A stretch of DNA of 43,985 nucleotides from a virus. Below are positions 20,747 through 34,374 of the stretch, piece by piece; positions within the stretch are counted from its first letter, which is position 1, and every line of letters starts with the position of its first letter. The translations under genes were made by a program, and so were the position numbers. Location of the stretch: positions 1 to 43,985 of the IMG/VR virus record IMGVR_UViG_3300028840_004226; one strand, 5' to 3'. The notes beneath the pieces are model-generated. The model was not told where the DNA came from. It did not search any database and saw only the letters and a list, made by a program, of their open reading frames with translations.

Positions 20747-20843
20747 AGAAATAATTTAAACTTTTTCTTGCGTGATGAGTTAGTTTTTTGTTATAATAAT
20801 CATAGGCAAACATCTTCTTTGTTGCCGATAATGGTTAGTTGGA

Positions 20844-20866
20844 GCCCTGGATCCTCCATCCAGGGC
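20844..20866 (+). terminator. Perfect 9-bp hairpin followed by T-rich tract
   Basis: GCCCTGGAT (20844-20852) pairs with ATCCAGGGC (20858-20866) around CCTCC, then TTTAATTTT on the plus strand. It has the form of an intrinsic terminator, but sits upstream of the first right-arm gene. It would stop rightward antisense reading out of the late block, or act on terL leader RNA made from the opposite direction. Confidence 0.6.
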
Positions 20867-20879
20867 TTTAATTTTGCCC

Positions 20880-20908
20880 TTGACAATAACTAACTAATTG
20901 ATTATTTT
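20880..20908 (+). promoter_or_regulatory. Sigma70-type promoter with AACTAAC box in the spacer; leaderless
   Basis: TTGACA (20880-20885), 17-bp spacer containing AACTAAC (20888-20894), then TATTTT (20903-20908). The ATG at 20915 begins only 6 bases after the -10, where transcription would start, and no ribosome site is present, so the mRNA is predicted to be leaderless. Confidence 0.65.
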
Positions 20909-20914
20909 AAAAAA

Positions 20915-21388
20915 ATGGCTAATAGTCTTAAAATTCAGGCGAAGAAGAAACGACAGCTTAATACTATGCTGCTGCGGGGGCTTCTGGGCGACGAAGCCGG
21001 CGGAGGTCGTGACCAGAGGGGCCTTCTCAAAAAGTGCCTGGAAATAATCGACCGGGACCTGGAACATGGCGATGAAGAACGCAAAGATAAAGCCATGGAG
21101 AAGGTAATCAAACTCCTTCCCTTCGTGATTGCGAAGGAGAAAGCCCCTGCAGTCCAGTTAAATATTCAGAATAATGATAATCGCGGCAGAGGCCAACAGG
21201 GAACAATGGTTGCTCTACAGACAGCCCAGGAGTATTTCAGGAAGCGCGAGCAAAGGATGATTGAACGCTCAGGAGGAAACGATGAAGTTGAAGATGCCGA
21301 AATCGTAGAAGCCGCAGACACATTGCCGCCCAAACACTACCGAAAATACGATAATTCAAAGCTGAAAGCAGAATATGAGGAAGACTAG
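20915..21388 (+). CDS. First right-arm gene; possible small terminase subunit
   Basis: A 157-residue charged helical protein (QAKKKRQLNTMLLRGLLGDE, then RKDKAMEKVIKLLPFVIAKE, a Gly/Arg/Gln-rich link and an acidic C terminus). Size, helical make-up and position next to terL fit a small terminase subunit. The opposite strand is unusual, and I see no definite DNA-binding motif, so a regulator is equally possible. It is read from a promoter that places the start of transcription at the ATG; no Shine-Dalgarno sequence is present. It overlaps the next gene by 14 bases. Confidence 0.65.
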   Translation: MANSLKIQAKKKRQLNTMLLRGLLGDEAGGGRDQRGLLKKCLEIIDRDLEHGDEERKDKAMEKVIKLLPFVIAKEKAPAVQLNIQNNDNRGRGQQGTMVALQTAQEYFRKREQRMIERSGGNDEVEDAEIVEAADTLPPKHYRKYDNSKLKAEYEED

Positions 21389-21758
21389 GTTCAGGAATCA
21401 CAACCAGGTAGTGCGTCCAGACGGGTCCGCTATTTCTGGTCTAAGTTTCAAAACTGACCTGGACAAAATGACCCCTGAAAGCAGAATCAAACTCCTTGGA
21501 TTATTCGAGAAGGCTTCACGCCAGTATATCATGGATTTCACGGAAAAGTGGATGGATAAAATCAAACTCGGGGTTCCTAGATTTTCCATCGCCGCGGTAT
21601 GGGGAATTATACGCACCATGCCGCCGGTTCACAATGAATTTTTTATCAGACGCACACATCGGCTGTCGAATATAGCAGAAGGGATGGGATATATTATCAA
21701 ATTCTCAAAATGGAGGTCAACAAAAGAGTATGGATGGATTCTCGAAAAAGCTGATTAG
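21375..21758 (+). CDS. Hypothetical protein
   Basis: A 127-residue basic protein with two helical segments (ESRIKLLGLFEKASRQYIMD and HRLSNIAEGMGYIIKFSKWR). No family recognised. It overlaps both neighbours (14 bases upstream, 29 bases into the glycosyltransferase gene), so it is part of one translationally coupled operon from 20915. Confidence 0.6.
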   Translation: MRKTRFRNHNQVVRPDGSAISGLSFKTDLDKMTPESRIKLLGLFEKASRQYIMDFTEKWMDKIKLGVPRFSIAAVWGIIRTMPPVHNEFFIRRTHRLSNIAEGMGYIIKFSKWRSTKEYGWILEKAD

Positions 21759-23118
21759 CGTGATAATTCCGCACCGGACGGACCGCCAGAGAATCATCTG
21801 CATGGATTCCCTGACGAATCAGACATATAAAAACCTTGAAATTATCGTAAAATTCGACGTCGAGTGCCAGGGAGCCCCTGTTGTACGAAACAACGGCTTC
21901 GAGATGGCTACAGGGGATTATGTCTTTTTTTGCGATGACGATATTATCCTGAAACCAGACGCCCTAGAGAAGATGGCGACTGTCCTCGACTCCAATCCGG
22001 AAGTAGGTTTTGTCTACTGCGACTACCTGAAGAAAGGGACCGTCAAAGGCCGCCAGAACGGGGAGCTGTTCAGTAAAGACCTCCTGAAACATCGCAACTA
22101 TGCGGCCACGATGTCCCTGGTGCGTCGTGAGGCATTTCAGGATGTGGGTAGATTTGATGAGGGGCTGGCCCGCTACCAGGACTGGGACCTCTGGCTCCGG
22201 ATAACCGGGGCCGGCTGGAAAGGCTATTACATCCCGGAAGCCTTGTTTACAGCATTTTTCGGAAAGGAAGGAATCTCCTCCGGAGGTCCGAAAAACAGGT
22301 TCAAAATGACCCATCGCCTCAAGAAGAAGCACAACATCAACGAATATGCTTATTCCGTCATCATTCCGATTCACAACGAGAAGCCGCTAGCGCAGAAATG
22401 CCTGGAGACCGTGCTGGCACATACCGGAGGCGATTATGAAGTTATCCTGGTGGATGACTGCTCCGGGAAAGAAACCGCCGATTGGATACGGGACCAGGAA
22501 AATATAGGCGTCCATGTGGTCCGCTCCGATGTACAGCTAGGTCACACCGGGGCTGTAAACCTTGGAGCAAAGGAAGCCAGGGGACAGTTCCTCTGCTTCC
22601 TCAACAGCGATACGCTTGTTTCTCCCCAGTGGAATTTCCTGCTAGCTCAGGTCCTCATAAACAACATGAACATATCGGCTGTAGGCCCATTGACATCGAG
22701 CTCCGCGAGCCTTCAGCAGTTACACGATATGTATAAGCGGCGCATGGACTATGGTCCCGGCGACATCGTGGCTCTCAATAAAATGGTGGTGGGGAAGCAG
22801 GAGAAAAAGGCTGTCGTCGCCAAGATAACCGGCTTCTGTTTCGTCACCACTTCCCTTATCTGGGAGGCTATCGGGGAATTCGACCCCGAGATTCCTGCCG
22901 GCGGCAACGAGGCTGACTGGCTTATTCGTGGAATGGACCTGGGACTCTATCCTGCCATGTGTACGGCCGTCTATGTTCATCACTACGGAAATCAGACTTA
23001 TGGCAAAATGAAAGATATGCGGCAACAGTGGAATCATGGCAATCAAATGGTCGTGCAGAAGCACGGACAGGAGAAAATGGACCGCCTGGAACTAGAGCTT
23101 TTCATGGAGAAAAAATGA
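21730..23118 (+). CDS. Tandem-domain GT2-family glycosyltransferase
   Basis: A 462-residue protein with two GT-A (GT2) domains. Domain 1 (residues 8-200) begins LISVIIPHRT, has the metal-binding FFCDDDIIL (D69-D71) and a later acidic motif YQDWDLWLRI. Domain 2 (208-400) begins YSVIIPIHNE, has VDDCS (241-245) and LNSDT (292-295) as the DxD equivalent, and ends with EADWLIRGMD. Such enzymes move a sugar from a nucleotide donor to a glycan, protein or modified base. No membrane segment is present. A GGAGG site lies 13 bases upstream. The following gene also carries a glycosyltransferase fold and overlaps by ATGA. Acceptor unknown: host surface glycan, virion protein or DNA. Confidence 0.88.
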   Translation: MDGFSKKLISVIIPHRTDRQRIICMDSLTNQTYKNLEIIVKFDVECQGAPVVRNNGFEMATGDYVFFCDDDIILKPDALEKMATVLDSNPEVGFVYCDYLKKGTVKGRQNGELFSKDLLKHRNYAATMSLVRREAFQDVGRFDEGLARYQDWDLWLRITGAGWKGYYIPEALFTAFFGKEGISSGGPKNRFKMTHRLKKKHNINEYAYSVIIPIHNEKPLAQKCLETVLAHTGGDYEVILVDDCSGKETADWIRDQENIGVHVVRSDVQLGHTGAVNLGAKEARGQFLCFLNSDTLVSPQWNFLLAQVLINNMNISAVGPLTSSSASLQQLHDMYKRRMDYGPGDIVALNKMVVGKQEKKAVVAKITGFCFVTTSLIWEAIGEFDPEIPAGGNEADWLIRGMDLGLYPAMCTAVYVHHYGNQTYGKMKDMRQQWNHGNQMVVQKHGQEKMDRLELELFMEKK

Positions 23119-24392
23119 CAAAAGACCCCGCCTTTGAGGAACTGCAACGACGTCTTAGAGAATCATACGAGGATCCTCTGCGCGTGGTCTGCCGCAGTAC
23201 CAATCCCCACAATGTCCTGGAGTGGGGGCCGGGAAATTCCACCAGCGTAATAGCGGAGGAGGTCCCATACGCCAGCATCCTGTCCATCGAGCATCACCCA
23301 AAGTGGTTCAGACTCTACCAGGAGGCTTTTAAAGATAATCCCCGCATTGACCTTCAGCTCAAGACCATTTCGATGAAGGGTGGCGCGTCGGAAGGATATG
23401 TCGGCTATCCCCTCAAGCACCTGAAGAAAACCGGCCGCCCGTATAATCTCATATTCATCGACGGAAGGCACAGGGCTGACTGTCTGGCGCTAGCGTCCCT
23501 CATGCCATGTGACCCGTATGTCGTAATCCATGACGCCAAACGACAGAATTACCAAAAATATTTCTCCCTTTTCAAACACATCTGGCACAGCACAGAGCTC
23601 AATACCGCAGTCCTGTCAAACCGGCACCTGGATTTCATGGAATCCCACCAGGTCGAATGGCTCAATATCCACTCAGTCGAGGAGACCATCAAGGACCTGG
23701 CAGACAGGCTGACCAGCCTGGACCCGTTTTTCTACGTCCGGTTCGGGGATGCTGAGATTTACATTATGAAGGACCCACTGTTCGCCAACCGTCGGCATCA
23801 GCCAAAGGACGAAAGTCTCAGCAAGGAGATTGTCGAAGCCTTCGGGATACAGAACAAGGCTTTCCTGCGGGCCTTCACTGTCGAGGGCTGGAAGAGAGGC
23901 AAGCTCATAGAGCTCAGGCGCATAGTCGGTGAGTTTATCCCGCATGGTGAGTGTGTCACGGTCCCCCATGTCAGCGCCGTCCATCTCAGCTTCCTCCATC
24001 ATTATCCCCTGTTCGAGAAATTCATCTTCAGGCTTCAGGGCAGGAATGTCGTGCTGGCCGGCGGACCCACTTCCTGCAACTCGCCGGAGGTCCGAAGAGC
24101 TTTCAATGTCAGCGAAACCATAGAACTCACGGATACAAACGCCTATGATGCCCTGACGCCGGAGAAAATGAAGGAAATAGAGAGCCATCTGCGGCCTGGG
24201 ACGGTCCTGCTGTCAGCCCTGGGCCATGCCTCAACCGTGCTAGCGAAAAGATTATTCTACAAGCACCATATCCAGTTCATCGACATCGGCTCAGTGGTAG
24301 ACGCGCTAGCGGGTGTCGGTACAAGAAACTGGATAATCAAGGCCTCCGAGTACGTCCAGGAAAAGCGGAAAAACTTTCAAAATGGATTATAA
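23115..24392 (+). CDS. Methyltransferase-like domain fused to GT-D glycosyltransferase
   Basis: A 425-residue fusion. The start is the ATG at 23115, which overlaps the upstream stop (ATGA). Residues 30-180 look like a class I SAM-dependent methyltransferase fold: VLEWGPGNST (34-43) as the cofactor loop, ILSIEHHPKW (55-64) with the acidic residue of strand 2, and NLIFIDGRHR (111-120). Residues 190-425 resemble the GT-D fold (DUF1792-type): YVRFGDAEIYIM (207-218) matches its FGDGE signature, and near the C terminus LLSALGHASTVLAKRLFY plus FIDIGSVVDALAG match its nucleotide-sugar loop and second conserved DIG. It probably works with the GT2 enzyme upstream on the same glycan. Two GCTAGC sites lie near its 3' end. 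Confidence 0.8.
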   Translation: MTKDPAFEELQRRLRESYEDPLRVVCRSTNPHNVLEWGPGNSTSVIAEEVPYASILSIEHHPKWFRLYQEAFKDNPRIDLQLKTISMKGGASEGYVGYPLKHLKKTGRPYNLIFIDGRHRADCLALASLMPCDPYVVIHDAKRQNYQKYFSLFKHIWHSTELNTAVLSNRHLDFMESHQVEWLNIHSVEETIKDLADRLTSLDPFFYVRFGDAEIYIMKDPLFANRRHQPKDESLSKEIVEAFGIQNKAFLRAFTVEGWKRGKLIELRRIVGEFIPHGECVTVPHVSAVHLSFLHHYPLFEKFIFRLQGRNVVLAGGPTSCNSPEVRRAFNVSETIELTDTNAYDALTPEKMKEIESHLRPGTVLLSALGHASTVLAKRLFYKHHIQFIDIGSVVDALAGVGTRNWIIKASEYVQEKRKNFQNGL

Positions 24393-24753
24393 AACAACCA
24401 AAAAGGACTTTGAGGTCTTCAAGAAAGAGGCTGAATATTGGCTGGAATATTTCCATCTTCACGACTGGGAGGTTCACTTCGAGCACTGTGACGCCAGGGG
24501 AAACCGAGCCCGATGCTGGAGCGACATTTCCGGCAGAATGGGGACCTTAGAGTTTGGAACTGAATGGTCCAAAAAGCCGGATAAATATGAATTACAAATA
24601 GCCGCTTTCCACGAAGTCTGTGAACTACTCCTATCGCGCCTGAGTACACTGCCTCTTAATATGTTCGATAGTGATTATATATCCGAAATTACACATGAAA
24701 TCATCCGAAGATTGGAAAACACAATCTTCAAAGAAAAAAGGAGTAAAAAATGA
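24382..24753 (+). CDS. Putative metallopeptidase-like protein (HEVCE)
   Basis: A 123-residue protein. The segment ELQIAAFHEVCELLLSRLST (about residues 70-90) has an HExxE helix like the first part of zinc peptidase motifs in small phage and SprT/ImmA-like proteins. A further acidic helix with a histidine (SEITHEIIRRLENT) could supply the third ligand. The N-terminal half has a strand-rich region (HDWEVHFEHC). It lies in the glycosyltransferase operon (11-base overlap upstream, ATGA overlap downstream). The catalytic assignment is tentative because the motif lacks the second histidine. Confidence 0.6.
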   Translation: MDYKTTKKDFEVFKKEAEYWLEYFHLHDWEVHFEHCDARGNRARCWSDISGRMGTLEFGTEWSKKPDKYELQIAAFHEVCELLLSRLSTLPLNMFDSDYISEITHEIIRRLENTIFKEKRSKK

Positions 24754-24905
24754 AGAAAATATGGTTTATCGTAGGAATCCTCTGGAGGAACAAGGAACTT
24801 CTTGAGTTCATCTTCGACCTGGTGGATGTCCTCAAGGACGGCCGCATTACCAAGACAGAACTCAATTACATCCTGGACAAAACCAGGGAAATCATCCCGT
24901 CATAG
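24750..24905 (+). CDS. Small hydrophobic-start protein (51 aa), EF-hand-like loop
   Basis: A 51-residue frame whose ATG overlaps the upstream stop (ATGA). It begins with a hydrophobic helix (MKKIWFIVGILW) and contains DLVDVLKDGRITKTELNY, which resembles a degenerate EF-hand loop. It is the last gene before the cargo region. No certain family. Confidence 0.55.
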   Translation: MKKIWFIVGILWRNKELLEFIFDLVDVLKDGRITKTELNYILDKTREIIPS

Positions 24906-24962
24906 GAGTCTAGCCCCAACCCACTGGCAACCCCTCCCACCCCCACCGGAAAGGAAAGAGAC
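24906..24962 (+). other. Short C-rich spacer ending in a cassette-boundary leader
   Basis: Non-coding C-rich stretch that ends in GGAAAGGAAAGAGAC directly before an ATG. The same leader recurs before two more cargo genes (25447-25465 and 26168-26185). Confidence 0.5.
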
Positions 24963-25466
24963 ATGAAAGTCACATTAAGGAAACTAAAGGCCTTGAAGGA
25001 GACTGATATTAAAAAGCTGTGGCAGTTGTACAAAAAAACGGGTGATATAGATTGGGCCAAATGGGTTGTTGCACGGCTTTTAAAAAAGCGTGAAGATAAA
25101 ATCCGATATGCGATTTATGCCGCTGAACAAGTTATAGGCAGTTATGAGGAAGTGTGTCCTGATAACAAGCGTCCCAGGGAAGCTATTGAAGCGGCAAAAA
25201 AAACAATTGCAAACGATACTAAGGAAAGTCGTGCCGCCGCCCGTGCCGCCGCCGATTCCGCAGCCTTTGCCGCCTATGCCGCCTATGCCGCCGATGCCGC
25301 CGATTCCGCAGCCTATGCCGCCTATGACGCCGCCCGTGCCGCCGCCAATGCCGCCTATGTCGCCTATGACGCCGCCTATGACGCCCGTACCTCTGGAAGA
25401 AAAACGAAAATCAAGATAATCAACTATGGGCTTAAACTGTTGACCACGGAAAGTAAAGAGACATGA
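24963..25466 (+). CDS. Imm5-like Ala-rich repeat protein
   Basis: A 167-residue protein. Residues 1-80 are helical and include CPDNKRPREAIEAAKKTI, close to the signature of Imm5-like putative immunity proteins. Residues 85-145 are long Ala-rich repeats (AAYAADAAD, AAYDAARAA) expected to form stacked helices, and the tail is basic. In DNA the repeat is GCC-rich and low in complexity. Immunity proteins of this type usually neutralise a toxin, but no toxin partner is visible here. The gene overlaps the next by ATGA and begins after the cassette leader. I recognise the family from the RPREAIEAA box and the Ala repeat; function is unknown. Confidence 0.65.
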   Translation: MKVTLRKLKALKETDIKKLWQLYKKTGDIDWAKWVVARLLKKREDKIRYAIYAAEQVIGSYEEVCPDNKRPREAIEAAKKTIANDTKESRAAARAAADSAAFAAYAAYAADAADSAAYAAYDAARAAANAAYVAYDAAYDARTSGRKTKIKIINYGLKLLTTESKET

Positions 25467-26170
25467 AAACCAAGATACAGATCAAATCTATATTGGGAAG
25501 AGTGCTGTTTGAGCATGAGTGTGATGATAACAGTGTAAAGAAGACGGTTGAAGAGGGAGCGGGAAAGGGCACAGACCTCACGAACGCAAACCTCACGAAC
25601 GCAAACCTCAGGAGCGCAGACCTCGGGGGCGCATACCTCGGGGGCGCATACCTTGGGGGCGCAGACCTCTGGGGCGCATACCTCACGAACGCAAACCTCA
25701 GTGGCGCAAACCTCACGAACGCAAACCTCAGTGGCGCAAACCTCACGAACGCAAACCTCAGTGGCGCAGACCTCAGGGGCACATACCTTGGGGGCGCAAA
25801 CCTCAGGGGCACATACCTTGGGGGCGCAGACCTCAGTGGCGCAAAAGGCCTATCCCCATTCAAAATAGTTCCAGAGGAAGGACAATTTATAGGCTGGAAA
25901 AAACTGGCAAATGGTAATGTAATACGGCTTCGCATTCCGGCCAAATCCAGACGCATGAATGCCATTAACTCCCGCAAGTGCAGGGCCGAGTTCGTTGTTC
26001 CTCTGGACGATTGCGGGACAGAGGGCAACACAGGAACGCACAAGAAGGGTGTGACCTATATCAAAGGCAAGACCGCCAGGTGCGACAAGTACGACCCGGA
26101 TATCAGAGAGGATTGCTCTGGGGGCATACACTTTTTCCTGACCAGGGAAGAGGCAGAGAACTGGAACTGA
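25463..26170 (+). CDS. Pentapeptide-repeat protein with DUF5758-like C terminus
   Basis: A 235-residue protein. Residues about 35-130 are some 18 pentapeptide repeats of the A(D/N)LxG/N form (for example ANLSGANLTNANLSG), which fold as a right-handed quadrilateral beta-helix. Residues 135-235 match the DUF5758 pattern: IGWKKL, VIRLRIPAKSRRMNA, NSRKCRAE, then GGIHFFLTREEAENW near the end. Some pentapeptide proteins mimic DNA and protect gyrase, but others have no known target, so no function is claimed. It overlaps the upstream stop (ATGA) and starts after the cassette leader. The DNA is built of near-identical 15-bp units. Confidence 0.85.
   Translation: MKTKIQIKSILGRVLFEHECDDNSVKKTVEEGAGKGTDLTNANLTNANLRSADLGGAYLGGAYLGGADLWGAYLTNANLSGANLTNANLSGANLTNANLSGADLRGTYLGGANLRGTYLGGADLSGAKGLSPFKIVPEEGQFIGWKKLANGNVIRLRIPAKSRRMNAINSRKCRAEFVVPLDDCGTEGNTGTHKKGVTYIKGKTARCDKYDPDIREDCSGGIHFFLTREEAENWN
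25576..25846 (+). repeat. 15-bp tandem units encoding the pentapeptide repeats
   Basis: About 18 units of the CTCACGAACGCAAAC / CTCAGTGGCGCAAAC / CTCGGGGGCGCATAC kind lie in frame. Runs of identical units (two or more of each kind) suggest recent slippage or unequal recombination, so copy number could vary between isolates. Confidence 0.85.
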
Positions 26171-26182
26171 AAGGAAAGAGAC

Positions 26183-26224
26183 ATGAACCAGGAACCAGAA
26201 CAAGGAGATCGGGATAATGAATGA
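26183..26224 (+). CDS. 13-codon leader ORF before the zinc protein
   Basis: ATG at 26183 lies in the third copy of the cassette leader and encodes only MNQEPEQGDRDNE before TGA. The stop overlaps the start of the next gene (26217), so the mini-ORF may couple its translation, or it may be the remnant of a displaced cassette gene. Confidence 0.4.
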   Translation: MNQEPEQGDRDNE

Positions 26225-26840
26225 CCTGAGAGAGTTTTGCGTAAAAGAGGCGGCAACCGCCAGAAAAGAGTTGGAAAGACTTGGAGATAAATTCCCGACC
26301 TCCACTAACTACGCCTTTGATAGAGGTCTTAATCTTGGCCTTAGCCACGCCTTTGATAGAGGCCTTAATCTTGGTTTTGCTCAAGCAATGGAGATGGTGA
26401 TAAAGAAACTGGAGGCCGGGGACAAGGCAACAGTGATAATGGAAAAAATAATTAATAATTCTGAAATGGTTATAGATGCAGAAGGAGATTACTATAAGGT
26501 TAAGAAAGCTCTTATTAGAGAAATTTTAGGAGAGGCCAACCAGAAGGAAACGGGGGGGGGGAGACCGGGACACCCCAAGGAGTACAAGGACCCCGTAGTC
26601 ACTTGCTGGCATTGTGGGAGCACCCATACCTGTGACTGCATGGACGCAACCTGTTATAAATGTGGTGCTCCATACGCAAAAGAAAGGTGCAAAGAATTTA
26701 ATTTCACCCCCAAGGAGGACACCTGTCAGGAGTGTGGAGGAAGCGGTTACGACAATGCGAATACTATTGATATTAATGATCGTATACCTTGTAGCTATTG
26801 CAACGGAAAGGGCCGCACCCCCAAGGAGGACAAGAAATGA
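26217..26840 (+). CDS. DnaJ-like double zinc-finger protein
   Basis: A 207-residue protein. The N-terminal 105 residues are helical with a near-perfect 12-residue duplication (AFDRGLNLG twice, residues 33-57), encoded by two 36-bp units at 26311-26382. A G-rich spacer encoding Gly-Gly-Gly follows. The C-terminal half has two zinc sites: CWHCG/CDCMDATCYKCG, and CQECGGSGYDN/CSYCNGKG, the latter a DnaJ-type CxxCxGxG pair. Such fingers bind unfolded protein or nucleic acid. A tract of ten G (26552-26561) lies in the frame and is a likely slippage site. It overlaps the next gene by ATGA. Confidence 0.7.
   Translation: MNDLREFCVKEAATARKELERLGDKFPTSTNYAFDRGLNLGLSHAFDRGLNLGFAQAMEMVIKKLEAGDKATVIMEKIINNSEMVIDAEGDYYKVKKALIREILGEANQKETGGGRPGHPKEYKDPVVTCWHCGSTHTCDCMDATCYKCGAPYAKERCKEFNFTPKEDTCQECGGSGYDNANTIDINDRIPCSYCNGKGRTPKEDKK
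26311..26382 (+). repeat. Two 36-bp coding repeats
   Basis: Units at 26311-26346 and 26347-26382 differ at only a few bases and encode FDRGLNLG twice within the zinc-finger gene. Confidence 0.75.
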
Positions 26841-27004
26841 ACTGCTGTAAGAATTGCCGGCTATGGGCTCCCAGGCCGGAAAAATGGACGGAGAACAACT
26901 GTTATGGTCGTGCAGGGCTTTCTGGGACCGGGAAGAAAAAAAAGACTTGCGTCATGAATCAGGAATGTGATATATTTAAGAACAGGAGTTTTCTATGCCA
27001 CTGA
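26837..27004 (+). CDS. Cys-rich small protein (55 aa)
   Basis: A 55-residue frame (starts MNCCKNCRLWAPRPEKWTEN) with CxxC near the start and further cysteines (NNCYGRAG, KTCVMNQECDIF), a likely zinc-binding knuckle. The ATG at 26837 overlaps the upstream stop (ATGA). Its end overlaps the next gene by 10 bases. No family recognised. Confidence 0.6.
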   Translation: MNCCKNCRLWAPRPEKWTENNCYGRAGLSGTGKKKKTCVMNQECDIFKNRSFLCH

Positions 27005-27141
27005 AAACAGGCTCATCGAGAAAAACCATTTCAGCCAATATTCGTGAACTCAAGGCCAGCGGACGTCCTCAGAAGCAGGCTGTTGCTATTTCTTTGAATA
27101 AAGCGGGAAAATCTCGTAAAAAACCCAAAAAAGGGCGATAA
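26995..27141 (+). CDS. Small basic DUF6496-like protein (48 aa)
   Basis: A 48-residue highly basic protein. The stretch SSRKTISANIRELKASGRPQ followed by KQAVAISLNKAGKSRKK is the pattern of a very common small phage protein (DUF6496-like) that lies near many phage accessory genes. It overlaps the previous gene by 10 bases, with an AGGAG site inside that gene. Function unknown; the charge suggests nucleic-acid binding. Confidence 0.7.
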   Translation: MPLKTGSSRKTISANIRELKASGRPQKQAVAISLNKAGKSRKKPKKGR

Positions 27142-27143
27142 TT

Positions 27144-27275
27144 TTGAAGAATAAAGTCCACTTCATTCATTTCAGAGATAGAACAATAGCTGTGGGCGGA
27201 AAGCTCATCCCTTGCATAGAGAACACTGAACAATCCGGGAAGAAACAGTCCTGGAAAAGACCTGAGTCGGAGTAA
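27144..27275 (+). CDS. Possible small protein (43 aa, TTG start)
   Basis: A 43-codon frame starting TTG at 27144 (MKNKVHFIHFRDRTIAVGGK then IPCIENT) just after the DUF6496-like gene. The amino acid pattern is protein-like, but the start codon is weak and no strong ribosome site is seen. It ends at the boundary of the structured RNA. Confidence 0.35.
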   Translation: MKNKVHFIHFRDRTIAVGGKLIPCIENTEQSGKKQSWKRPESE

Positions 27276-27680
27276 GGAGGTCCGGCTCCGGCCGGGTTCA
27301 CCCCAAAAAGACCAGGCCGGTTGGAGGTCGTTAAAAGCCTCACCGAGAGCGAAGCGCGGGGAGTGTGTAAGCAGTAATGCCCACGGTGGCTCCCTGTGCA
27401 AGCTCTCCCTCTGCCGATAGCCCCGCAACCCCGTGATGAGCGGCCGAAAGGATAACCAAGGGGGCGACCACTCGATGGGACGATGGTCCCTGTATGCCGT
27501 CTGCGTCATGTGTTCTCAGGTATAGCCCACAAGGGAATGTACGCCACATGAGCAGGGGACACTGAGAAATCCTCTTACAGCCAGACCGAGGGAGGGAAGT
27601 ATGTGTTTCCTGTCTTCTTTCATAAAGGCAGGGGATAGGTGCGTCCGTACAGGACAAACCGGCGAAAGAAGACAATATCT
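27276..27680 (+). ncRNA. Putative large structured RNA, family unknown
   Basis: About 400 non-coding bases with many nested complementary segments on the plus strand: CTCCGGCC (27286-27293) with GGCCGG-ttg-GAG (27315-27326); GAGAGC with GCTCTC enclosing GGGAG with CTCCC (27345-27407); CCGAAAGG, a GNRA-type tetraloop (27444-27451); GGGAC-GATG-GTCCC (27477-27490); TCATGTG with CACATGA (about 27507-27550); and TGTCTTCTTTC (27611-27621) with GAAAGAAGACA (27664-27674), a perfect 11-bp stem enclosing GTCC-gtaca-GGAC. The GNRA loop supports the plus orientation. Size and cargo setting recall ornate phage RNAs such as GOLLD, ROOL and HEARO, but I cannot match it to any of them. No signature of group I or II introns, tmRNA, RNase P or tRNA is visible. 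Confidence 0.65.
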
Positions 27681-27704
27681 AATAAATAATCCTGTCTGAT
27701 AACC

Positions 27705-27733
27705 TTGACTGTACAGTCATTACAGCTTATCTT
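27705..27733 (+). promoter_or_regulatory. Promoter with 14-bp palindromic operator
   Basis: TTGACT (27705-27710), 17-bp spacer, TATCTT (27728-27733). A perfect palindrome TGACTGTACAGTCA (27706-27719) covers the -35, and an AACTAAC box (27744-27750) follows the predicted start of transcription. The palindrome is likely a repressor site; the CTGTACAG core is LexA-like in flavour but shorter than the E. coli site. Confidence 0.6.
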
Positions 27734-27764
27734 AATATGACGTAACTAACTTAGAGAGGCTGTT

Positions 27765-28067
27765 ATGGCTGTTAAAGAAGAAAAAAAGAACACGCCAGCT
27801 AGCGCTGGCTCTAATTCGCCCTGTCCGGGCTCATCTGACTCTTGGCCGCCGAAGGGGTTTCGCATTCTGGACCCTCGCGAAGCAAATAAACCGCTACCAG
27901 AACAGAATAGTCCTCAATGCCTAAAGCCGATAAGGTCATTGCGCGAAGGATTGAGGATGTTCCGCAAGGAACAGTCCGAAGCCGGAGCCCGGTTGGCTGA
28001 GAAACAGAGGAGCGACCCGCATACACTCCGGTTCAATATGAACAAAGATTTCGACTACTGGAAATAA
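27765..28067 (+). CDS. Hypothetical protein, Pro/Ser-rich N terminus
   Basis: A 100-residue protein. The first 45 residues are Ser/Pro/Lys-rich and probably disordered. Residues 55-100 contain a basic amphipathic helix (IRSLREGLRMFRKEQSEAGA). It is the only gene in the strip between the structured RNA and the origin region and has its own promoter, so a role in replication control is possible. No family recognised. Confidence 0.55.
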   Translation: MAVKEEKKNTPASAGSNSPCPGSSDSWPPKGFRILDPREANKPLPEQNSPQCLKPIRSLREGLRMFRKEQSEAGARLAEKQRSDPHTLRFNMNKDFDYWK

Positions 28068-28104
28068 ATTCCCCTGAAATTCTGGATTGAATAACTGTTA
28101 AATC

Positions 28105-28137
28105 AATCTATCAACAATCTATCAACAATCTATCAAC
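28105..28137 (+). repeat. Three tandem 11-bp iterons AATCTATCAAC
   Basis: Exact copies at 28105-28115, 28116-28126 and 28127-28137. Confidence 0.9.
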
Positions 28138-28255
28138 ACCCTATGCTAGCATGGCAGGGATGGGTAGGTATAGGCAGGGTAGTGGTGTAAATGGATGAAA
28201 AAATGGGTGAAAGTATATATACACCTAGACCGAGCCGACCGACCCGTCGCCCCCT

Positions 28256-28279
28256 GGGATGGGGGAGGGGTAAACAGGG
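28256..28279 (+). other. Potential G-quadruplex (four G runs)
   Basis: GGG-AT-GGGGG-A-GGGG-TAAACA-GGG on the plus strand. Loops of 1-6 bases satisfy the usual quadruplex rule. It lies between the two iteron arrays. Confidence 0.5.
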
Positions 28280-28495
28280 AACCAGCTAGCACAAGTCATT
28301 GCAATGCTAGCACTTAACCTATCCGATAACATAACCCGTCCTATAGCCTGCTCTCAAACCAGAACAGCTAGCTAGCTATCGAGAAACGATAAAAGGGAAG
28401 TCAATCTCTCCCCCCCAAAATCTATCATTTCAGCCAGCTAGCAAACCCAATCTAATCAAGAATATCCTAATATTCGTATATAATGATACACTAAT

Positions 28496-28535
28496 GTTGA
28501 TAACTTGTTGATAATTTGTGGACATAATGTTGATA
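28496..28535 (-). repeat. Inverted iteron array GTTGATA at 11-bp spacing
   Basis: Exact GTTGATA at 28496, 28507 and 28529, with a degenerate copy GTGGACA at 28518. GTTGATA is the reverse complement of the TATCAAC core of the 28105-28137 array, so the two arrays face each other across about 360 bp. Confidence 0.85.
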
Positions 28536-28764
28536 AAACCATCTCTCTAGCTGATAGAACTAAACTAGAATACTTGCCTGCTAGTCTTAGTTATTACGTT
28601 TAAGTACTCTTTTACTGGTTTAGCATACTAATTTATACCTAGTCTACTAGCTTGTATTAATAGCTTGAAACGCTTGTGCTACGTAGCCATCTACCTAATT
28701 ATGCAGTTTTATTTGGTCTTTTTAGGCTGTTTTGGCAGGAATCTAAGAAAGTTATAAATAGACC

Positions 28765-28825
28765 TTGCATTTTAGGCGGGCATTGGGTATCCTATTATTA
28801 TTATTTTGCCAACTAACCAACTAAC
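28765..28825 (+). promoter_or_regulatory. Possible promoter with tandem AACTAACC boxes
   Basis: TTGCAT (28765-28770), 17 bp, TATCCT (28788-28793), then AACTAACC twice in tandem (28811-28818, 28819-28826) ahead of the AAA+ gene. The hexamers match the consensus only partly. The tandem boxes are exact. Confidence 0.5.
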
Positions 28826-28849
28826 CATTATTAAAAAGGAACATAAACC

Positions 28850-29968
28850 ATGAAAACAAAGCAAGACCTTGAGTCCATGTCATCTGCTGATTTAAGAGCA
28901 GAAGTAAGGAAAGAGCGCGATTTGGGAAATCCTAATTGCGCCCAATTAACCGGCACCCAAATAGTAGGGATGTCAAAAGTCGAATGTATCTCTGCAATCT
29001 TAGGATTAGGCGCTGAACAGCCCGAACAGCATAAACAGGCTGAAAAACCGGAAAAACCAGCTAGCACCAATAATAATAAAGCGCTGGCTGAACAATTAGC
29101 AAATATCCTCAATAATGCTAATAATCCGGTTGATATGACGGAAATTGAGAAGATGATTGACAATAAAATGGATTCAGCGGTCCGTAAAATCAGGGAAGAT
29201 AATATACAGCAAATTGAAATTAAGCGACAGGACGATAGCAAAGAAAAAATTGATACGCCACATATAATGTTTAGGCGTTTATTAGATATTTGTCAATTGC
29301 GTCTTAATGCCTTTTTAAGCGGTCCTGCTGGAAGTGGGAAAACAACCGGCGCGCATCAAGTAGCAAAAGCGCTTGACCTTCCCTATTATCCTATATCGGT
29401 ATGCTCTCAAACAACCATATCTCATTTAATGGGATATACGGATGCAACGGGTAAATACGTTGAGACCGGAGTATATAAGGCATTTGTTAATGGTGGGGTA
29501 CTACTCATTGATGAGGTCGACGGTGGTAACGCCAATGTGACCAATGTACTAAACGCTTTGCTGGCCAATGGTACGGCCTCTTTTCCTTGCGGTACATTCG
29601 AGAAACACCCCGATTTTATATGTATTTCAGCCGGAAATACTTGGGGATACGGTGCAAGCAGGGAATACTGCGGGAGGAATCCCCTTGACGGCGCTTTTTT
29701 GGATAGATGGATTCCCATACCATGGGATTATGACGAAAAACTGGAACGCAAGATAGCAGGTAATCTAGAATGGACCGAATACGTACAGAAAATCCGGAAA
29801 ACAGTTTTTGACCTTAAAATTAAAATTATCGTCTCACCTAGGGCATCAATCGCCGGCGCTAAATTGATTAAAGCCGGTTGGAAAAAAGAAGATGTCGAAA
29901 ATTATACCATTTGGAATAAAGTGGGGGATGAAATCCGGCAAAAAGTCAAGAAAGCAATGGAGGCATAA
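28850..29968 (+). CDS. MoxR/CbbQ-type AAA+ ATPase
   Basis: A 372-residue ATPase. Residues 1-130 are charged and partly disordered with a helical start. The AAA+ core has Walker A GPAGSGKTT (158-166), Walker B VLLIDEVD (217-224), a sensor 1 Asn in ISAGNTWG (about 263) and GAFLDRW (281-287), which can hold the arginine finger. The extra beta-hairpin pattern and Asn-rich sensor are typical of the MoxR/CbbQ clade, whose members use ATP to remodel a client with the help of a VWA-domain partner. The next gene, one base after the stop, encodes such a VWA-like protein. A promoter with two AACTAACC boxes lies upstream. Confidence 0.9.
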   Translation: MKTKQDLESMSSADLRAEVRKERDLGNPNCAQLTGTQIVGMSKVECISAILGLGAEQPEQHKQAEKPEKPASTNNNKALAEQLANILNNANNPVDMTEIEKMIDNKMDSAVRKIREDNIQQIEIKRQDDSKEKIDTPHIMFRRLLDICQLRLNAFLSGPAGSGKTTGAHQVAKALDLPYYPISVCSQTTISHLMGYTDATGKYVETGVYKAFVNGGVLLIDEVDGGNANVTNVLNALLANGTASFPCGTFEKHPDFICISAGNTWGYGASREYCGRNPLDGAFLDRWIPIPWDYDEKLERKIAGNLEWTEYVQKIRKTVFDLKIKIIVSPRASIAGAKLIKAGWKKEDVENYTIWNKVGDEIRQKVKKAMEA

Positions 29969-29969
29969 A

Positions 29970-30818
29970 ATGAGGCATATCACAGAAAAATCAAACCAGC
30001 ACCATTTCACATTTGATTCTTTGGCAGATTACTTGGATTATTCAATGAGGGAATGCGACTTATCTGAAAGTTCCCGGGCAAGCCGAAAAGTAAAAAACTG
30101 GTCTGGCGGGAAAACTTATAACGAATCTGTAAATATGGCTTTTTCAGGCTGGAAAGAAGGGGCCGAAAAAGTATCTGAATTAAGCGCTAAATTCTCAAAA
30201 GCCAGAGCAGAAGAAATTACAGCTAGCGCGCTGGTCTATGATACGGCCGGCGCTATGGTTGATGTTGGTGTATTTATGACCGGCGATCCTGAATGTATGA
30301 TTGACTTTGCCGAACAAATTCAGCATAAACCAGTAATAAAAATCGGATTTGATATTTGCGTTAACGCGGGAATTAAACCGAATGAAATGGTACGAAAAGG
30401 TGCCGTTATGCTGGCATTGGTTGAAGCTCTTGAATTTGCTGGTGTAGCCGTTGAGCTCCATGGTTTTAACTTCAACGAAGGGAATCAAAGTCGGTCATTT
30501 TTCTTCGAGGATATAGTATTCAAGCGTTCAGACGAACCTCTAGATATTGATAGGATGGCTTTTTGCATGGCTTTTCCTGGGTTTCTAAGGCAAATTAGCT
30601 TTTCAGCATGGGAAAATCATTCTGAACAAATCAGGGAAAATCATAATATTCCAAATGGAGGATATGGAAGAACGGGAAGCATAACCGACGATCTGAAAAA
30701 GCGGTATGATTACGATTTATGCCCTACTTATAATCCGTATGATTACGATACTACCGAAAAATGTCTTGAGAATCTAAAGAAACTGGCAAGGGAAGCCGGT
30801 GTAGAACTTGAAAACTAA
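29970..30818 (+). CDS. VWA-like partner of the AAA+ ATPase (DUF7192-like)
   Basis: A 282-residue protein. I choose the ATG at 29970 because GGAGG lies 6-7 bases upstream; a longer frame to 29892 would overlap the ATPase gene. Residues 1-90 are helical (SNQHHFTFDSLADYLDYSMR). Residues about 95-200 match the von Willebrand A strand-helix order: IKIGFDICVNAG corresponds to the metal site DxSxS, but without the serines, followed by GAVMLALVEALEFAGVAVEL. The MIDAS is therefore degenerate. Pairs of MoxR ATPase and VWA protein act as chaperones or loaders (RavA-ViaA, CbbQ-CbbO). The client here is unknown. A UUCG terminator follows. Confidence 0.7.
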   Translation: MRHITEKSNQHHFTFDSLADYLDYSMRECDLSESSRASRKVKNWSGGKTYNESVNMAFSGWKEGAEKVSELSAKFSKARAEEITASALVYDTAGAMVDVGVFMTGDPECMIDFAEQIQHKPVIKIGFDICVNAGIKPNEMVRKGAVMLALVEALEFAGVAVELHGFNFNEGNQSRSFFFEDIVFKRSDEPLDIDRMAFCMAFPGFLRQISFSAWENHSEQIRENHNIPNGGYGRTGSITDDLKKRYDYDLCPTYNPYDYDTTEKCLENLKKLAREAGVELEN

Positions 30819-30825
30819 CCTAAAA

Positions 30826-30844
30826 AGGGGACTTCGGTCCCCCT
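30826..30844 (+). terminator. UUCG-tetraloop terminator after the ATPase/VWA pair
   Basis: AGGGGAC-TTCG-GTCCCCCT with an A-run before and TAATTAA after. A very stable hairpin that would end the ATPase/VWA transcript. Confidence 0.7.
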
Positions 30845-30894
30845 AATTAACAAAAAAACACCAACAACTAACCAACAACAAAAAAGGGGTAAAA

Positions 30895-31212
30895 ATGTAC
30901 GCAATAAAAATCAATAACAAGCCGGTGCAGGCCGTAGCAACCGCGCAAATAGCAGAGGACTTCGGGCCTGCCGGAATTGCTATGTTGTCAATGCTGGCTT
31001 TCCATGCGCTCCAACAAAAGCCGGTCGATATGCTGGTATTCGAGAAAGATGGTGCTGTGCGCTCCGCCGGATATGATTACCGGACTAATGAGCTCGACGA
31101 AGAGACCCTGCTAGCAAAGACCAAAGCGGATTTTCCCGAGAGCTTCTGGTTTAAACTGGATGACTACGGCGATAAATATATAGGCACGTTCCTTTATCCT
31201 CACGAATATTAA
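30895..31212 (+). CDS. Hypothetical protein
   Basis: A 105-residue acidic protein (MYAIKINNKPVQAVATAQIA) with a hydrophobic helix (GIAMLSMLAFHALQQ) and a C-terminal beta segment (FWFKLDDYGDKYIGTFLYPH). An AAAAAAGGGG ribosome site precedes the ATG and an AACTAAC box lies at 30866-30872. No family recognised. Confidence 0.6.
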   Translation: MYAIKINNKPVQAVATAQIAEDFGPAGIAMLSMLAFHALQQKPVDMLVFEKDGAVRSAGYDYRTNELDEETLLAKTKADFPESFWFKLDDYGDKYIGTFLYPHEY

Positions 31213-31221
31213 CCATTAACC

Positions 31222-31238
31222 GGGGGCCCTGTGCCCCC
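31222..31238 (+). terminator. GC hairpin terminator
   Basis: GGGGGC (31222-31227) pairs with GCCCCC (31233-31238), loop CCTGT, followed by TTATTAT. Short but strong; likely ends the 30895 gene transcript. Confidence 0.55.
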
Positions 31239-31260
31239 TTATTATCCAGAGGACCCGATC

Positions 31261-31560
31261 ATGGAATTTACGGCCCCGAAAATCAGAGGAAATAAACCAT
31301 GGCTAGCCAAGCTAACCGGCCTTGATAATAAATTTGGATTTTCAAGAGAATTTATTAGAAAAAGAAAAATTATAGCGAATAATTCACCCTATGAGGAATA
31401 TTCTTTAAAAACAGTAGGACCCGGCTGGTATCAGCTATCGGTCCCTGAGCCCCCGGACGGCAAGCCGGATAAAGCCTTTTTCGAGCTAGCGGTAATGGAT
31501 GAAGGGGAAGAGGTTTTGACTTGGAAGACCGAGCAAGAGACCAAGAAATATTTTTCATAA
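31261..31560 (+). CDS. Hypothetical protein
   Basis: A 99-residue protein (starts MEFTAPKIRG) with KTVGPGWYQLSVPEPPDGKP in a strand-rich middle. I choose the ATG at 31261 with AGAGGA upstream rather than the in-frame GTG at 31231, which lies inside the terminator hairpin. No family recognised. Confidence 0.6.
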   Translation: MEFTAPKIRGNKPWLAKLTGLDNKFGFSREFIRKRKIIANNSPYEEYSLKTVGPGWYQLSVPEPPDGKPDKAFFELAVMDEGEEVLTWKTEQETKKYFS

Positions 31561-31572
31561 ATAATTTTATGC

Positions 31573-31619
31573 TTGACATTTAGACCCGAATACAGTAAAT
31601 TAGATTATAACTAACTAAC
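31573..31619 (+). promoter_or_regulatory. Promoter with AACTAAC boxes over the start site
   Basis: TTGACA (31573-31578), 17 bp, TAAATT (31596-31601), then two overlapping AACTAAC boxes (31609-31615, 31613-31619). A strong -35 and a weak -10. The boxes are where a repressor would block initiation. Confidence 0.55.
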
Positions 31620-31641
31620 CATTAAATAAGGGAGTGAAAAA

Positions 31642-31878
31642 ATGAACGAACAACAAATAATCCGGATAACTACAATGGTGGTGTGGATTGTACGCGCCAA
31701 ACAGTTAGCCGAAAGCGTCTACGGCGTTTCTATCGAAGGCAGGGCGCACGAAATGGGGGAACTGTTTTTAAATGGACTGGACCCCGCTCAGGCTGTCCGC
31801 GCTTTTGGAAAAAAGCATAATTTGGTCGAAATGGTCCCCATGGAGGATGTTCTGGGATGCGGGGCCCCGGCCAATTAA
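31642..31878 (+). CDS. Small hypothetical protein
   Basis: A 78-residue helical protein (WIVRAKQLAESVYGVSIEGR, GLDPAQAVRAFGKKHNLVEM). It is read from its own promoter with AACTAAC boxes and ends just before a 14-bp palindromic hairpin. No family recognised. Confidence 0.55.
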   Translation: MNEQQIIRITTMVVWIVRAKQLAESVYGVSIEGRAHEMGELFLNGLDPAQAVRAFGKKHNLVEMVPMEDVLGCGAPAN

Positions 31879-31895
31879 TAATGCTGGCACATGGT

Positions 31896-31927
31896 CGAAT
31901 ATATATCTCTCCCGAGATATATATTCG
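31896..31927 (+). other. Perfect 14-bp inverted repeat (A/T-rich hairpin)
   Basis: CGAATATATATCTC (31896-31909) and its exact complement at 31914-31927 around TCCC. No T run follows, so it is not a standard terminator. It sits just before the ribosome site of the HNH gene and may be an mRNA stability or processing element or a protein-binding palindrome. Confidence 0.75.
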
Positions 31928-31961
31928 GTCCCCCGCTAGCGATAAATGAGGAGATGACAAG

Positions 31962-32492
31962 ATGCCTGAAAAAAACCCGGAAAAATTTAAAATGAGCCCC
32001 CACGAAATCCCCCTGTCTATCGAGCTAGTCCCTACGACCTGCTGGTGGTCCAATGTCCGGTCAAACATCAGCCGAAAGGACTGGAAAAAGCTCCGAGACG
32101 AACAGCTATCCGCTAGCGGGTATCGTTGCCAGGTTTGTCTCCATAAGCCCAGCAGTTCTTCACGCTGGCTGGAATTACACGAATTATGGGATTACCAGTT
32201 ATCCGATTACAAGTTGTCCGGAGTCCAGAAACTAATTGGCCTCCAGATACTCTGTAAGCGCTGTCACGAAGTCAAGCACGCCGGTCTGTCATTCAGCCGG
32301 GGGAAATATCCGGAAGTGATTCAGCGCCTTCAAAACGTAAATAAATGGGACCTGGAAACGGCCCAGGACTATATCCGGTTCATGTTCGAGCAGTGGGATG
32401 CCCGGAGCGAAATAGAGTGGGAGCTGGATATTTCCCTGCTAGATAGGTACGGCATAAAGTATAAAAAAGAAAGGAAGGAAAAACGTGTCTGA
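31962..32492 (+). CDS. HNH endonuclease-like protein
   Basis: A 176-residue protein. C56-x2-C59 (RCQVCLHK), H73 (LELHELWDY) and C98-x2-C101-H102-x3-H106 (LCKRCHEVKH) give the HNH fold with a zinc knuckle: the ELHELW strand carries the general-base histidine and KRCHEVKH the metal ligands. Residues 110-176 are helical, probably for DNA contact. HNH proteins in phages often nick at packaging or replication sites or act as homing enzymes. No intron or homing context is visible. A GAGGAG ribosome site precedes the ATG. Confidence 0.75.
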   Translation: MPEKNPEKFKMSPHEIPLSIELVPTTCWWSNVRSNISRKDWKKLRDEQLSASGYRCQVCLHKPSSSSRWLELHELWDYQLSDYKLSGVQKLIGLQILCKRCHEVKHAGLSFSRGKYPEVIQRLQNVNKWDLETAQDYIRFMFEQWDARSEIEWELDISLLDRYGIKYKKERKEKRV

Positions 32493-32634
32493 TTTTGATG
32501 ATTTTAATGATGATGATGATAAAACAGAGGAATATCCCTGCCCAATGTGCAATGGTGATTTATCATTATATAATGGATTTTGGACCTGCAATAATTGTGA
32601 TTTTAAGTCACGGCCAAGAGAGGAGGTAGCATGA
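32485..32634 (+). CDS. Zinc-ribbon small protein (49 aa)
   Basis: A 49-residue frame starting GTG at 32485 (8-base overlap with the HNH gene, AGGAAGG upstream). Acidic start (DFDDFNDDDDKTEEYPCPMC) followed by CPMCNGD and CNNCDF, a four-cysteine ribbon. It overlaps the next ATG. Such small ribbons are frequent in phage early operons. Confidence 0.55.
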   Translation: MSDFDDFNDDDDKTEEYPCPMCNGDLSLYNGFWTCNNCDFKSRPREEVA

Positions 32635-32936
32635 CACTTGAAGAAGAAAAACGCCTTGTACTGAAATGGCTTGGATATTCTGTTGGAGTGAACCGTTACT
32701 GGAAAAAGGAAGCTGGACGTGTTGGGGCTATGTCCATAGAGTCTTACCACGGCAACACAGACCCCCGCTGCTGGCCGGAGATATGGGAGAAGATAGATGG
32801 CCAAATGATAAAGAAATATATTCCAATTTTAGCTGAAATGGTGGGTGGAGACTGGAAATGTCCTTGGCGTATCCACACAGCCCCGCCCGAAGTCTGCTGG
32901 AAAGCCTTGATTAAGACCCTAAAGGGGGCTGAATGA
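32631..32936 (+). CDS. Hypothetical protein, Trp-rich
   Basis: A 101-residue protein with eight Trp residues (WKKEAGRVGAMSIESY, PRCWPEIWEKIDGQMIKKYI). The shape of the sequence is that of a widespread phage early protein of unknown function. It is coupled to both neighbours (4-base overlaps at both ends). Confidence 0.6.
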   Translation: MTLEEEKRLVLKWLGYSVGVNRYWKKEAGRVGAMSIESYHGNTDPRCWPEIWEKIDGQMIKKYIPILAEMVGGDWKCPWRIHTAPPEVCWKALIKTLKGAE

Positions 32937-33250
32937 AGCTGGAAATTAAAGAGCTAGCGTATTACCGCACCTGGAACAAAAAGCCGGTCCGGGTAATTCA
33001 CATCTTCAAAAGCACAAAATCCTGCATCGTGGAGGGAAAAGATGAGCTCCAAGCAATGCCATTGTCGGATTTGGTAGATATATTAACGCCGGAAGAAATC
33101 CCGGAATACCTGAAACCCCAAAAAGGAGAAATAAATGGAGAAGAAGACGAATACATTGGAGCTTCACCCGAAGCCCGCCCCCCAGTACAAGATAGCAGTC
33201 CCTACTCATCGGGAAATTGGATGGGGGACAGTCAAGAATCTGGTCGCTGA
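32933..33250 (+). CDS. Hypothetical protein with long overlap into next gene
   Basis: A 105-residue frame. Residues 1-65 look like a folded beta-rich domain (KKPVRVIHIFKSTKSCIVEG). The last 40 residues share DNA with the next gene in a different frame (116-bp overlap, 33135-33250) and look unstructured. ATGA overlap with the upstream stop. No family recognised. Confidence 0.55.
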   Translation: MKLEIKELAYYRTWNKKPVRVIHIFKSTKSCIVEGKDELQAMPLSDLVDILTPEEIPEYLKPQKGEINGEEDEYIGASPEARPPVQDSSPYSSGNWMGDSQESGR

Positions 33251-33848
33251 CCTGCTCAAGCGGGATATGTTCCCGCTAGCTGGAATCTGGCGGCAGTGCG
33301 GCGCGGACGTCTCCAGAAATGAGGCTATCTGCCCGGACCAGCGCTGTTTTCCAGAGCTTCCCCCCGTGGCTGGCGTTCTCTGCCTGGATACCGACATTGT
33401 AGCAACTGTGGACCAAGTGCTAGCGCTGGAAAAGAAATTCAGTGAGAGGAGCCTGGATGTTCTAGCCGGCCTTTACCGGAAACGGGAAGATGATGCTTAT
33501 TGTGTCAGCATATATGGCGATAAATCCGAGACCAAAAAGCTATCAGGGATTATTCCTGTCCGCCAGGTTGGGTTCGGGTGCGCCTTCATTAGAACTTCTT
33601 TGCTAGCAAAAATGCCGAAGCCCTGGTTTCATACCGAATGGACAACTGTAAAAAATTCTAAAAGAGAAGAGGAATGGAGGCTAATCCCCGAAGACACTAT
33701 ATTTTGTCAAAAAGTGATAGCAGTGGGAGGCAAGGTGTGGTGCGACTTTGATGTTGAAGTAGGTCACAAGACTCTGGGAGCAGATGCTTTAAAGGCTTAT
33801 AGTCAAGCACTTTTAGATGAGGTACGCCCTCCTGAAAATAAGACTTGA
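33135..33848 (+). CDS. Glycosyltransferase-like protein (GT-A fold)
   Basis: A 237-residue protein. IAVPTHREIGWGT at the N terminus is the nucleotide-binding start, LCLDTDIVAT (residues 82-91) holds a DxD metal motif, VGFGCAFIRTSLL (144-156) is the acceptor loop, and PEDTIFCQKVIAVGGKVWCD (184-203) is the catalytic-base segment (ED at 185-186). Together these match GT-A glycosyltransferases found in phages. It is the third such protein, about 10 kb away from the pair at 21730-24392. A GGAG site precedes ATG 33135, which lies in the previous gene. Confidence 0.75.
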   Translation: MEKKTNTLELHPKPAPQYKIAVPTHREIGWGTVKNLVADLLKRDMFPLAGIWRQCGADVSRNEAICPDQRCFPELPPVAGVLCLDTDIVATVDQVLALEKKFSERSLDVLAGLYRKREDDAYCVSIYGDKSETKKLSGIIPVRQVGFGCAFIRTSLLAKMPKPWFHTEWTTVKNSKREEEWRLIPEDTIFCQKVIAVGGKVWCDFDVEVGHKTLGADALKAYSQALLDEVRPPENKT

Positions 33849-33891
33849 TTTTTAGGGCGATAGTCTATATATTTAAAAATGAGGCTTAAAG

Positions 33892-34131
33892 ATGAGAGAG
33901 AGTGTAGAAATAGAAAGACTCTACGGGGCGAGTTTAAGGCTGGTGAGTGTCGCGCTCATCGAAAAAGCCGAGCTATTTCCCGCTCTCTCTCATTCCAAAA
34001 TCCTCAATACGGTGACCGAAAACATCCCTTTTCTGGAGGCTTTTCTTGGGGTTCGGCTCACCCTGCCGGGAATACACCGGCTGGCTTACGAAATAAAGGA
34101 GGTTATGAAATCGCATATTTTTATTTCGTAA
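33892..34131 (+). CDS. Small helical hypothetical protein
   Basis: A 79-residue protein (RLYGASLRLVSVALIEKAEL, ENIPFLEAFLGVRLTLPGIH). A longer frame from 33879 in another register gives a low-complexity basic sequence and is less likely. No family recognised. Confidence 0.5.
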   Translation: MRESVEIERLYGASLRLVSVALIEKAELFPALSHSKILNTVTENIPFLEAFLGVRLTLPGIHRLAYEIKEVMKSHIFIS

Positions 34132-34366: not shown

Positions 34367-34374
34367 GAGGAATC

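Follow-up and report, generated by a model that had tools for sequence, protein, structure and literature searches.

Among the large non-coding RNAs carried by phages, the closest described systems to the locus studied here are GOLLD and ROOL (Rumen-Originating, Ornate, Large). GOLLD RNAs are often longer than 800 nt and have a universally conserved 3' region, ROOL reportedly occurs in many kinds of phages and prophages, and for both RNAs a position close to tRNA islands is described as frequent (PMC12286853), which is a tendency and not a strict requirement. A further feature of both is homo-oligomeric assembly of RNA alone into a nanocage.

In this work we analyzed a window of 43,985 bp, the whole of a single IMG/VR virus record (IMGVR_UViG_3300028840_004226) from a tailed phage with a portal and a large terminase. 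A first-pass annotation had proposed that an unassigned structured RNA, which might represent a new family, lies at 27276–27680 and that its size and phage setting match those of the large ornate RNAs. This match turned out to be weak. The candidate, like GOLLD, would be a large non-coding RNA carried by a phage, but it measures about 400–500 nt while GOLLD often exceeds 800 nt (PMC12286853), it gives no GOLLD match even at E 10, and its contig is without tRNA. It resembles ROOL in being phage-borne and non-coding, with a multibranched predicted fold and possible pseudoknots; however, it has no Rfam match, no tRNA island nearby and no relatives found, whereas ROOL is widespread (PMC12286853).

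Structured operon 3'UTRs and intercistronic stabilisers share with the candidate the presence of stable hairpins between co-directional transcription units, but the candidate is much longer than usual for them and has no terminator on the plus strand. CsrB/RsmZ-type sponge RNAs are similar in length to the candidate, which, like these protein sponges, contains several GGA motifs, one of them at a hairpin loop. A CsrA sponge was nevertheless rejected: GGA occurs 15 times against 13.0 expected (P 0.26), which is at chance level, and most GGA are paired.

The segment most likely represents a non-coding intercistronic RNA at the 3' end of a rightward cargo operon, acting in cis; we put the probability of this reading at roughly 0.4. 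That this orphan candidate is a working RNA is plausible but unproven. If functional, it would be one more large orphan phage RNA of a known kind and nothing categorically new; a real RNA here would be a further orphan in the small group of large structured RNAs that phages carry and for which the purpose is debated.

Gene neighbourhood of the candidate RNA

Genes are located on the minus strand at 778–20746 and on the plus strand from 20915 to 38160, so that the neighbours of the segment on both sides are all on the plus strand. The features surrounding it are as follows.

Upstream of the candidate RNA, plus strand: two glycosyltransferase-like genes
25463–26170, plus strand: pentapeptide-repeat/DUF5758 protein, upstream of the candidate RNA
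26217–26840, plus strand: 207-aa protein, upstream of the candidate RNA
26995–27141, plus strand: small protein with a PHROG match (phrog_2423), upstream of the candidate RNA
27144–27275, plus strand: 43-codon ORF with a TTG start, codon score -0.046, overlapping hairpins 1 and 2 (see below)
27185–27680, plus strand: candidate structured RNA in its extended limits (27276–27680 plus an upstream arm), delimited by folding z and by the lack of coding signal in 27276–27680
27705–27733, plus strand: sigma-70-like promoter TTGACT-17-TATCTT, by sequence match
27706–27719: perfect 14-bp palindrome TGACTGTACAGTCA over the -35 of the promoter-like site
27765–28067, plus strand: 100-aa ORF, codon score 0.049, downstream of the promoter-like site

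On the 3' side of the candidate RNA the order is the promoter-like site, the 100-aa orphan ORF, a 782-bp non-coding gap, an AAA ATPase and a DUF7192 protein. The last two genes (28850–30818; the ATPase is assigned to phrog_249, labelled porphyrin biosynthesis) each have relatives in Staphylococcus and Mycobacterium phages. The phage itself is isolated. Relatives of its terminase and portal among 50,697 phage records are all remote (<30% identity, just 24–25% for the portal), an exact-peptide scan of IMG/VR viral contigs revealed no terminase relative, and synteny via the AAA gene led to one remote locus without the candidate RNA. A scan of the 44-kb contig with ARAGORN revealed neither tRNA nor tmRNA.

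Coding status and upstream edge of the segment

When scored with a codon model that was trained on genes of this phage, the six frames of 27276–27680 range from -0.10 to -0.22 nats/codon, compared with -0.147 ± 0.079 for off-frame DNA and -0.07 to +0.19 for the short genes of this phage. The stretch is non-coding. It belongs to a gap of 489 bp (27276–27764), the second longest internal gap of the contig, which would reach at most ~620 bp if the preceding 43-codon ORF is no gene. The first-pass annotation had thus rightly seen no convincing gene here. It had also named a conserved coding frame across the candidate RNA as the finding that would speak against it; such a frame was looked for and not found. 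Two overlapping minus-strand ORFs have no PHROG match, and back-translated peptide patterns revealed no relatives of them in viral or genome contigs. A possible 32-codon ORF (MCFLSSFIKAGDRCVRTGQTGERRQYLINNPV) is located at 27601–27699, with GGAGG (27591–27595) 5 nt ahead of its ATG; the codon score of this open frame, -0.113, is at the off-frame level.

The coding status of the 43-codon ORF is doubtful. It has no PHROG, and the frame 27120–27275 has no tblastn match in phages at E<=1. Its stop is overlapped by a perfect Shine-Dalgarno-type sequence (an AAGGAGG site), TAAGGAGGT, at 27273–27281. This sequence extends over the stem end and loop of hairpin 2, and no start codon occurs in the 20 nt after it. 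The 5' limit at 27276 did not hold, being merely the stop of this doubtful ORF: excess stability rises with sequence back to ~27185, and the boundary is doubtful because strong pairing extends back to 27189–27298.

Folding stability against chance

We computed folding z-scores against dinucleotide shuffles. The plus strand of 27276–27680 has an MFE of -160.9 kcal/mol and a z of -3.14, with 0 of 100 shuffles as good, while the minus strand reaches a z of -1.75. Addition of the upstream flank (27144–27704) lowers z to -4.44 (0/100 shuffles), and 27185–27585 gives -4.07 (0/150 shuffles). The latter ranks third of 874 among 400-nt windows in a composition regression, for which ranking its limits were picked. 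The longest local perfect stem, of 11 bp, has a P of 0.0035. The region contains two contiguous pseudoknots (crossing helices; P 0.0145), of which the best has 18 bp in all (P 0.002). The plus-strand fold of the candidate RNA is therefore moderately beyond chance, and its MFE structure contains more than seven stems of >=5 bp, in agreement with the at least seven originally reported.

The claim that the density of pairing is far above that of any other stretch, on the contrary, failed. Perfect Watson-Crick stems of >=7 bp number 5 versus 3.9 in shuffles (P 0.34); windows 12301, 14101 and 38501 (minus strand), largely coding, fold about as well as 27185–27585; and elsewhere in the genome windows reach z of -4 to -5.8. 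The closing arm described below is not exceptional in energy either: comparable long-range duplexes are common in this genome, and we rejected the arm as proof of structure.

The same figures bear on the view that there is no functional RNA here and that the segment is a GC-rich relic or spacer, left by a decayed gene or an insertion in a foreign cargo block, with a fold excess usual for single-sequence tests. This view is nearly as likely as a trans-acting RNA (see below), that is, rather improbable. The perfect-stem count at chance, the coding windows of similar z and the unexceptional long-range duplex are all consistent with it, as is the GC content, which is 0.57–0.62 in 27200–27600 versus ~0.41–0.46 just before. 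The tetranucleotide CTAG, found once against 9.0 expected in 24311–27797, hints at a separate origin, and insertion or decay might leave a perfect Shine-Dalgarno sequence that lacks a start codon, such as the one at 27273–27281. Moreover, single-sequence structure prediction is no evidence for an RNA whose structure matters (Rivas, PMC8250186), a weakness that also favours a relic; an attractive fold of a single sequence is inseparable from chance without relatives. However, z values down to -4.4 with 0/100 shuffles and the advantage of the plus over the minus strand are poorly explained by a relic, and a recognisable gene or mobile element was not found in the segment.

Local hairpins and long-range pairing

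The predicted elements of the candidate RNA are listed below; p is the folding probability.

27234–27255, plus strand: hairpin 1, 7 bp, UCCGGGA/UCCUGGA, p 0.97–0.98 in every context containing it, -9.2 kcal/mol
27259–27298, plus strand: hairpin 2, 6+8 bp, its 8-bp part with p 0.92–0.99 in all contexts containing the hairpin, -23.3 kcal/mol
27345–27407, plus strand: hairpin 3, 6+11 bp with internal loop GAA/AA, p 0.99 in all contexts
27599–27642, plus strand: hairpin 4, 4+13 bp with several G-U pairs, p 0.97–0.99 in all contexts containing it
27189–27226, plus strand: possible closing arm, pairing piecewise with 27510–27517 and 27552–27581, from folding probabilities
27316–27322/27657–27663, plus strand: alternative closing helix, GCCGGUU/AACCGGC
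27506–27512/27545–27551 with 27513–27519/27562–27568, plus strand: possible H-type pseudoknot, 7+7 Watson-Crick bp
27611–27621/27664–27674, plus strand: 11-bp helix of the first-pass annotation, a perfect complement

Hairpins 1–4 persist under any choice of ends, but the long-range architecture does not. Segments around hairpins 3 (27342–27408) and 4 (27598–27680), both picked after the fact, have z of -4.99 and -3.77, respectively. The closing arm (27189–27226/27510–27581) has a p of ~1.0 when 27144–27704 or 27180–27600 is folded and of 0.01 for 26900–27764. The GCCGGUU/AACCGGC helix has a p of 0.95–0.96 for 27276–27680, 27230–27720 and 26900–27764; in every other folded stretch that includes it, p is 0. 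The two were never found together.

Other long-range elements compete with stronger stems. The 11-bp 3' helix does exist as a perfect complement, but it competes for one strand with the 13-bp hairpin 27604–27616/27625–27637, so that its predicted probability is at most ~0.01; forcing the helix costs ~7 kcal/mol. The H-type pseudoknot would need 27500–27504/27552–27556 to be open, because otherwise few nucleotides, judging by the loop lengths, are left to cross the first stem; as it clashes with this helix, it was rejected as a firm feature. The pseudoknot combining 27316–27322/27657–27663 with 27611–27621/27664–27674 was likewise rejected, as it clashes with hairpin 4. The reported GNRA tetraloop carries little weight: it closes a mere 2-bp stem with p 0.77, or 0.33 with the upstream flank.

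The multibranch fold raises the question whether the phage encodes a large, discrete, trans-acting RNA from a family not yet described, one that would work like GOLLD or ROOL and be compact, multibranched and pseudoknotted. The core at z -4.07, ranking 3/874 among the windows, argues for it, together with the two contiguous pseudoknots (P 0.0145; 18 bp for the best, P 0.002), the 489-bp non-coding gap and the phage cargo setting. Nevertheless, we regard such an RNA as unlikely. Its two closing helices are mutually exclusive, stronger local stems compete with both pseudoknots, and no tRNA lies nearby; the lack of an Rfam match and of any relative in the collections searched also contrasts with the wide distribution of ROOL (PMC12286853).

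Search for family and relatives

Covariance models of Rfam 15 gave no match at gathering score on either strand of the whole window, and nothing relevant was found in 27150–27850 at up to E 10. In particular, GOLLD, ROOL, OLE, HEARO and raiA were absent up to E 10 in 27150–27850 and up to E 1 in 20700–38000, and neither a group I or group II intron nor an RNase P or tmRNA core was revealed by covariance models and ARAGORN. With no Rfam match and no tRNA or tmRNA, the statement that the RNA belongs to no assignable known family was confirmed.

Distant blastn detected no homologs in phages (E 1e-5 and E 10) or in plasmids. Exact DNA patterns gave none in viral and genome contigs, the few matches having no similarity beyond the pattern, and back-translated peptide patterns from both halves of the candidate RNA gave none in viral or genome (bacterial/archaeal) contigs. 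The term orphan therefore means orphan at this sensitivity, because exact-pattern scans miss homologs below an estimated ~80% identity.

A bolder reading is a new family of large phage RNAs of ~400–500 nt (27185–27680) that act in trans during infection. Such an RNA would have contiguous pseudoknots, a long closing arm with a three-way junction, and a hairpin on which a perfect Shine-Dalgarno sequence is exposed but not followed by a start codon. This reading is more doubtful still than a relic. A defence RNA was rejected: PADLOC matches are weak and partial (the AAA gene to IetA models, 31962–32492 to ZorE), and no reverse transcriptase was found among the proteins scanned with PADLOC.

Downstream promoter-like site and iteron gap

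The candidate had been said to end just upstream of a regulated promoter, and it is indeed followed closely by a promoter-like site that carries a perfect 14-bp palindrome. The promoter-like site is weak by itself, because 4 such sites were found versus 4.4 expected. The palindrome TGACTGTACAGTCA occurs once in the window, against 0.07 expected with up to 2 mismatches, and is likely an operator. The 100-aa ORF that follows has no Pfam, PHROG or phage tblastn match.

This arrangement is consistent with the intercistronic RNA acting in cis that we prefer. The segment, for which no promoter of its own was found, would be co-transcribed with the genes before it and fold into strong independent hairpins at ~27234–27298, 27345–27407 and 27599–27642; these may protect the transcript on their 5' side against 3' exonucleases and keep the cargo operon apart from the gene at 27765, which would be transcribed from its own promoter, and no single conserved architecture would be involved. 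Consistent with such a role are the lack of coding signal in any frame of 27276–27680, the plus strand folding better than both the minus strand and the shuffles, the persistence of four local hairpins under choices of ends that exchange the long-range helices, the plus-strand genes on both sides, and the promoter-like site with its operator-like palindrome, which opens a new unit right after the segment. On the other hand, no intrinsic-terminator-like site was found on the plus strand of the segment, in a compact phage a plain spacer or transcript end would be expected to be shorter than 400–500 nt, and no homolog was found, hence there is no sign of selection on any pair.

The non-coding gap at 28068–28849 (782 bp) contains six TATCAACA iterons in two inverted clusters, three at 11-bp spacing (28109–28138) and three inverted (28495–28535), and none elsewhere in the window. 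It also holds six GCTAGC and is a candidate replication origin or partition site. The proximity of this iteron gap and a weak complementarity between 27456–27479 and 28235–28258 could indicate that the segment is a DNA-level element of the adjoining replication region, forming ssDNA hairpins or an origin primer transcript. We consider this highly improbable, given that the promoter and the 100-aa ORF lie between the segment and the iterons, that complementarity of this kind recurs between unrelated stretches, and that the strand asymmetry speaks for RNA. The iteron motif is absent from the segment, and an origin primer was rejected on this ground.

Iterated palindrome, avoided words and other features of the contig

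The palindrome GCTAGC occurs at 72 sites in the whole window versus 8.1 expected from shuffling and 7.5 from a second-order Markov model. The sites are randomly spaced, occupy two reading phases in genes, and 13 of them lie outside the gene model. The two phases and the non-coding sites therefore point to a signature at the level of DNA, similar to the highly iterated palindromes (HIPs) of cyanobacteria. A study of these HIPs names neither GCTAGC nor phages (PMC4390886), and the excess is absent from a remote portal relative, Microcystis phage Mwe-JY25 (2 versus 4.05 expected in 28.5 kb). The enrichment is an oddity separate from the candidate RNA, and a firmer one.

In the cargo block (24311–27797) GCTAGC is missing (0 versus 5.7 expected), a gap that alone is not significant (P 0.17); together with the single CTAG (9.0 expected), it is a hint that the block may have been acquired separately. 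Several words are strongly avoided in the whole window, namely GATC (24 versus 152 expected), GAATTC (1 versus 22.6), CAGCTG (1 versus 21.6) and GCAGC/GCTGC (16 in total), as if its sequence had been shaped by several restriction systems.

Of the local hairpins in the window, scanned on both strands, those at 20826–20895 and 15541–15610 are among the strongest. The first is located between the divergent genes ending or starting at 20746 and 20915, and the second is near the gap at 15684–15864.
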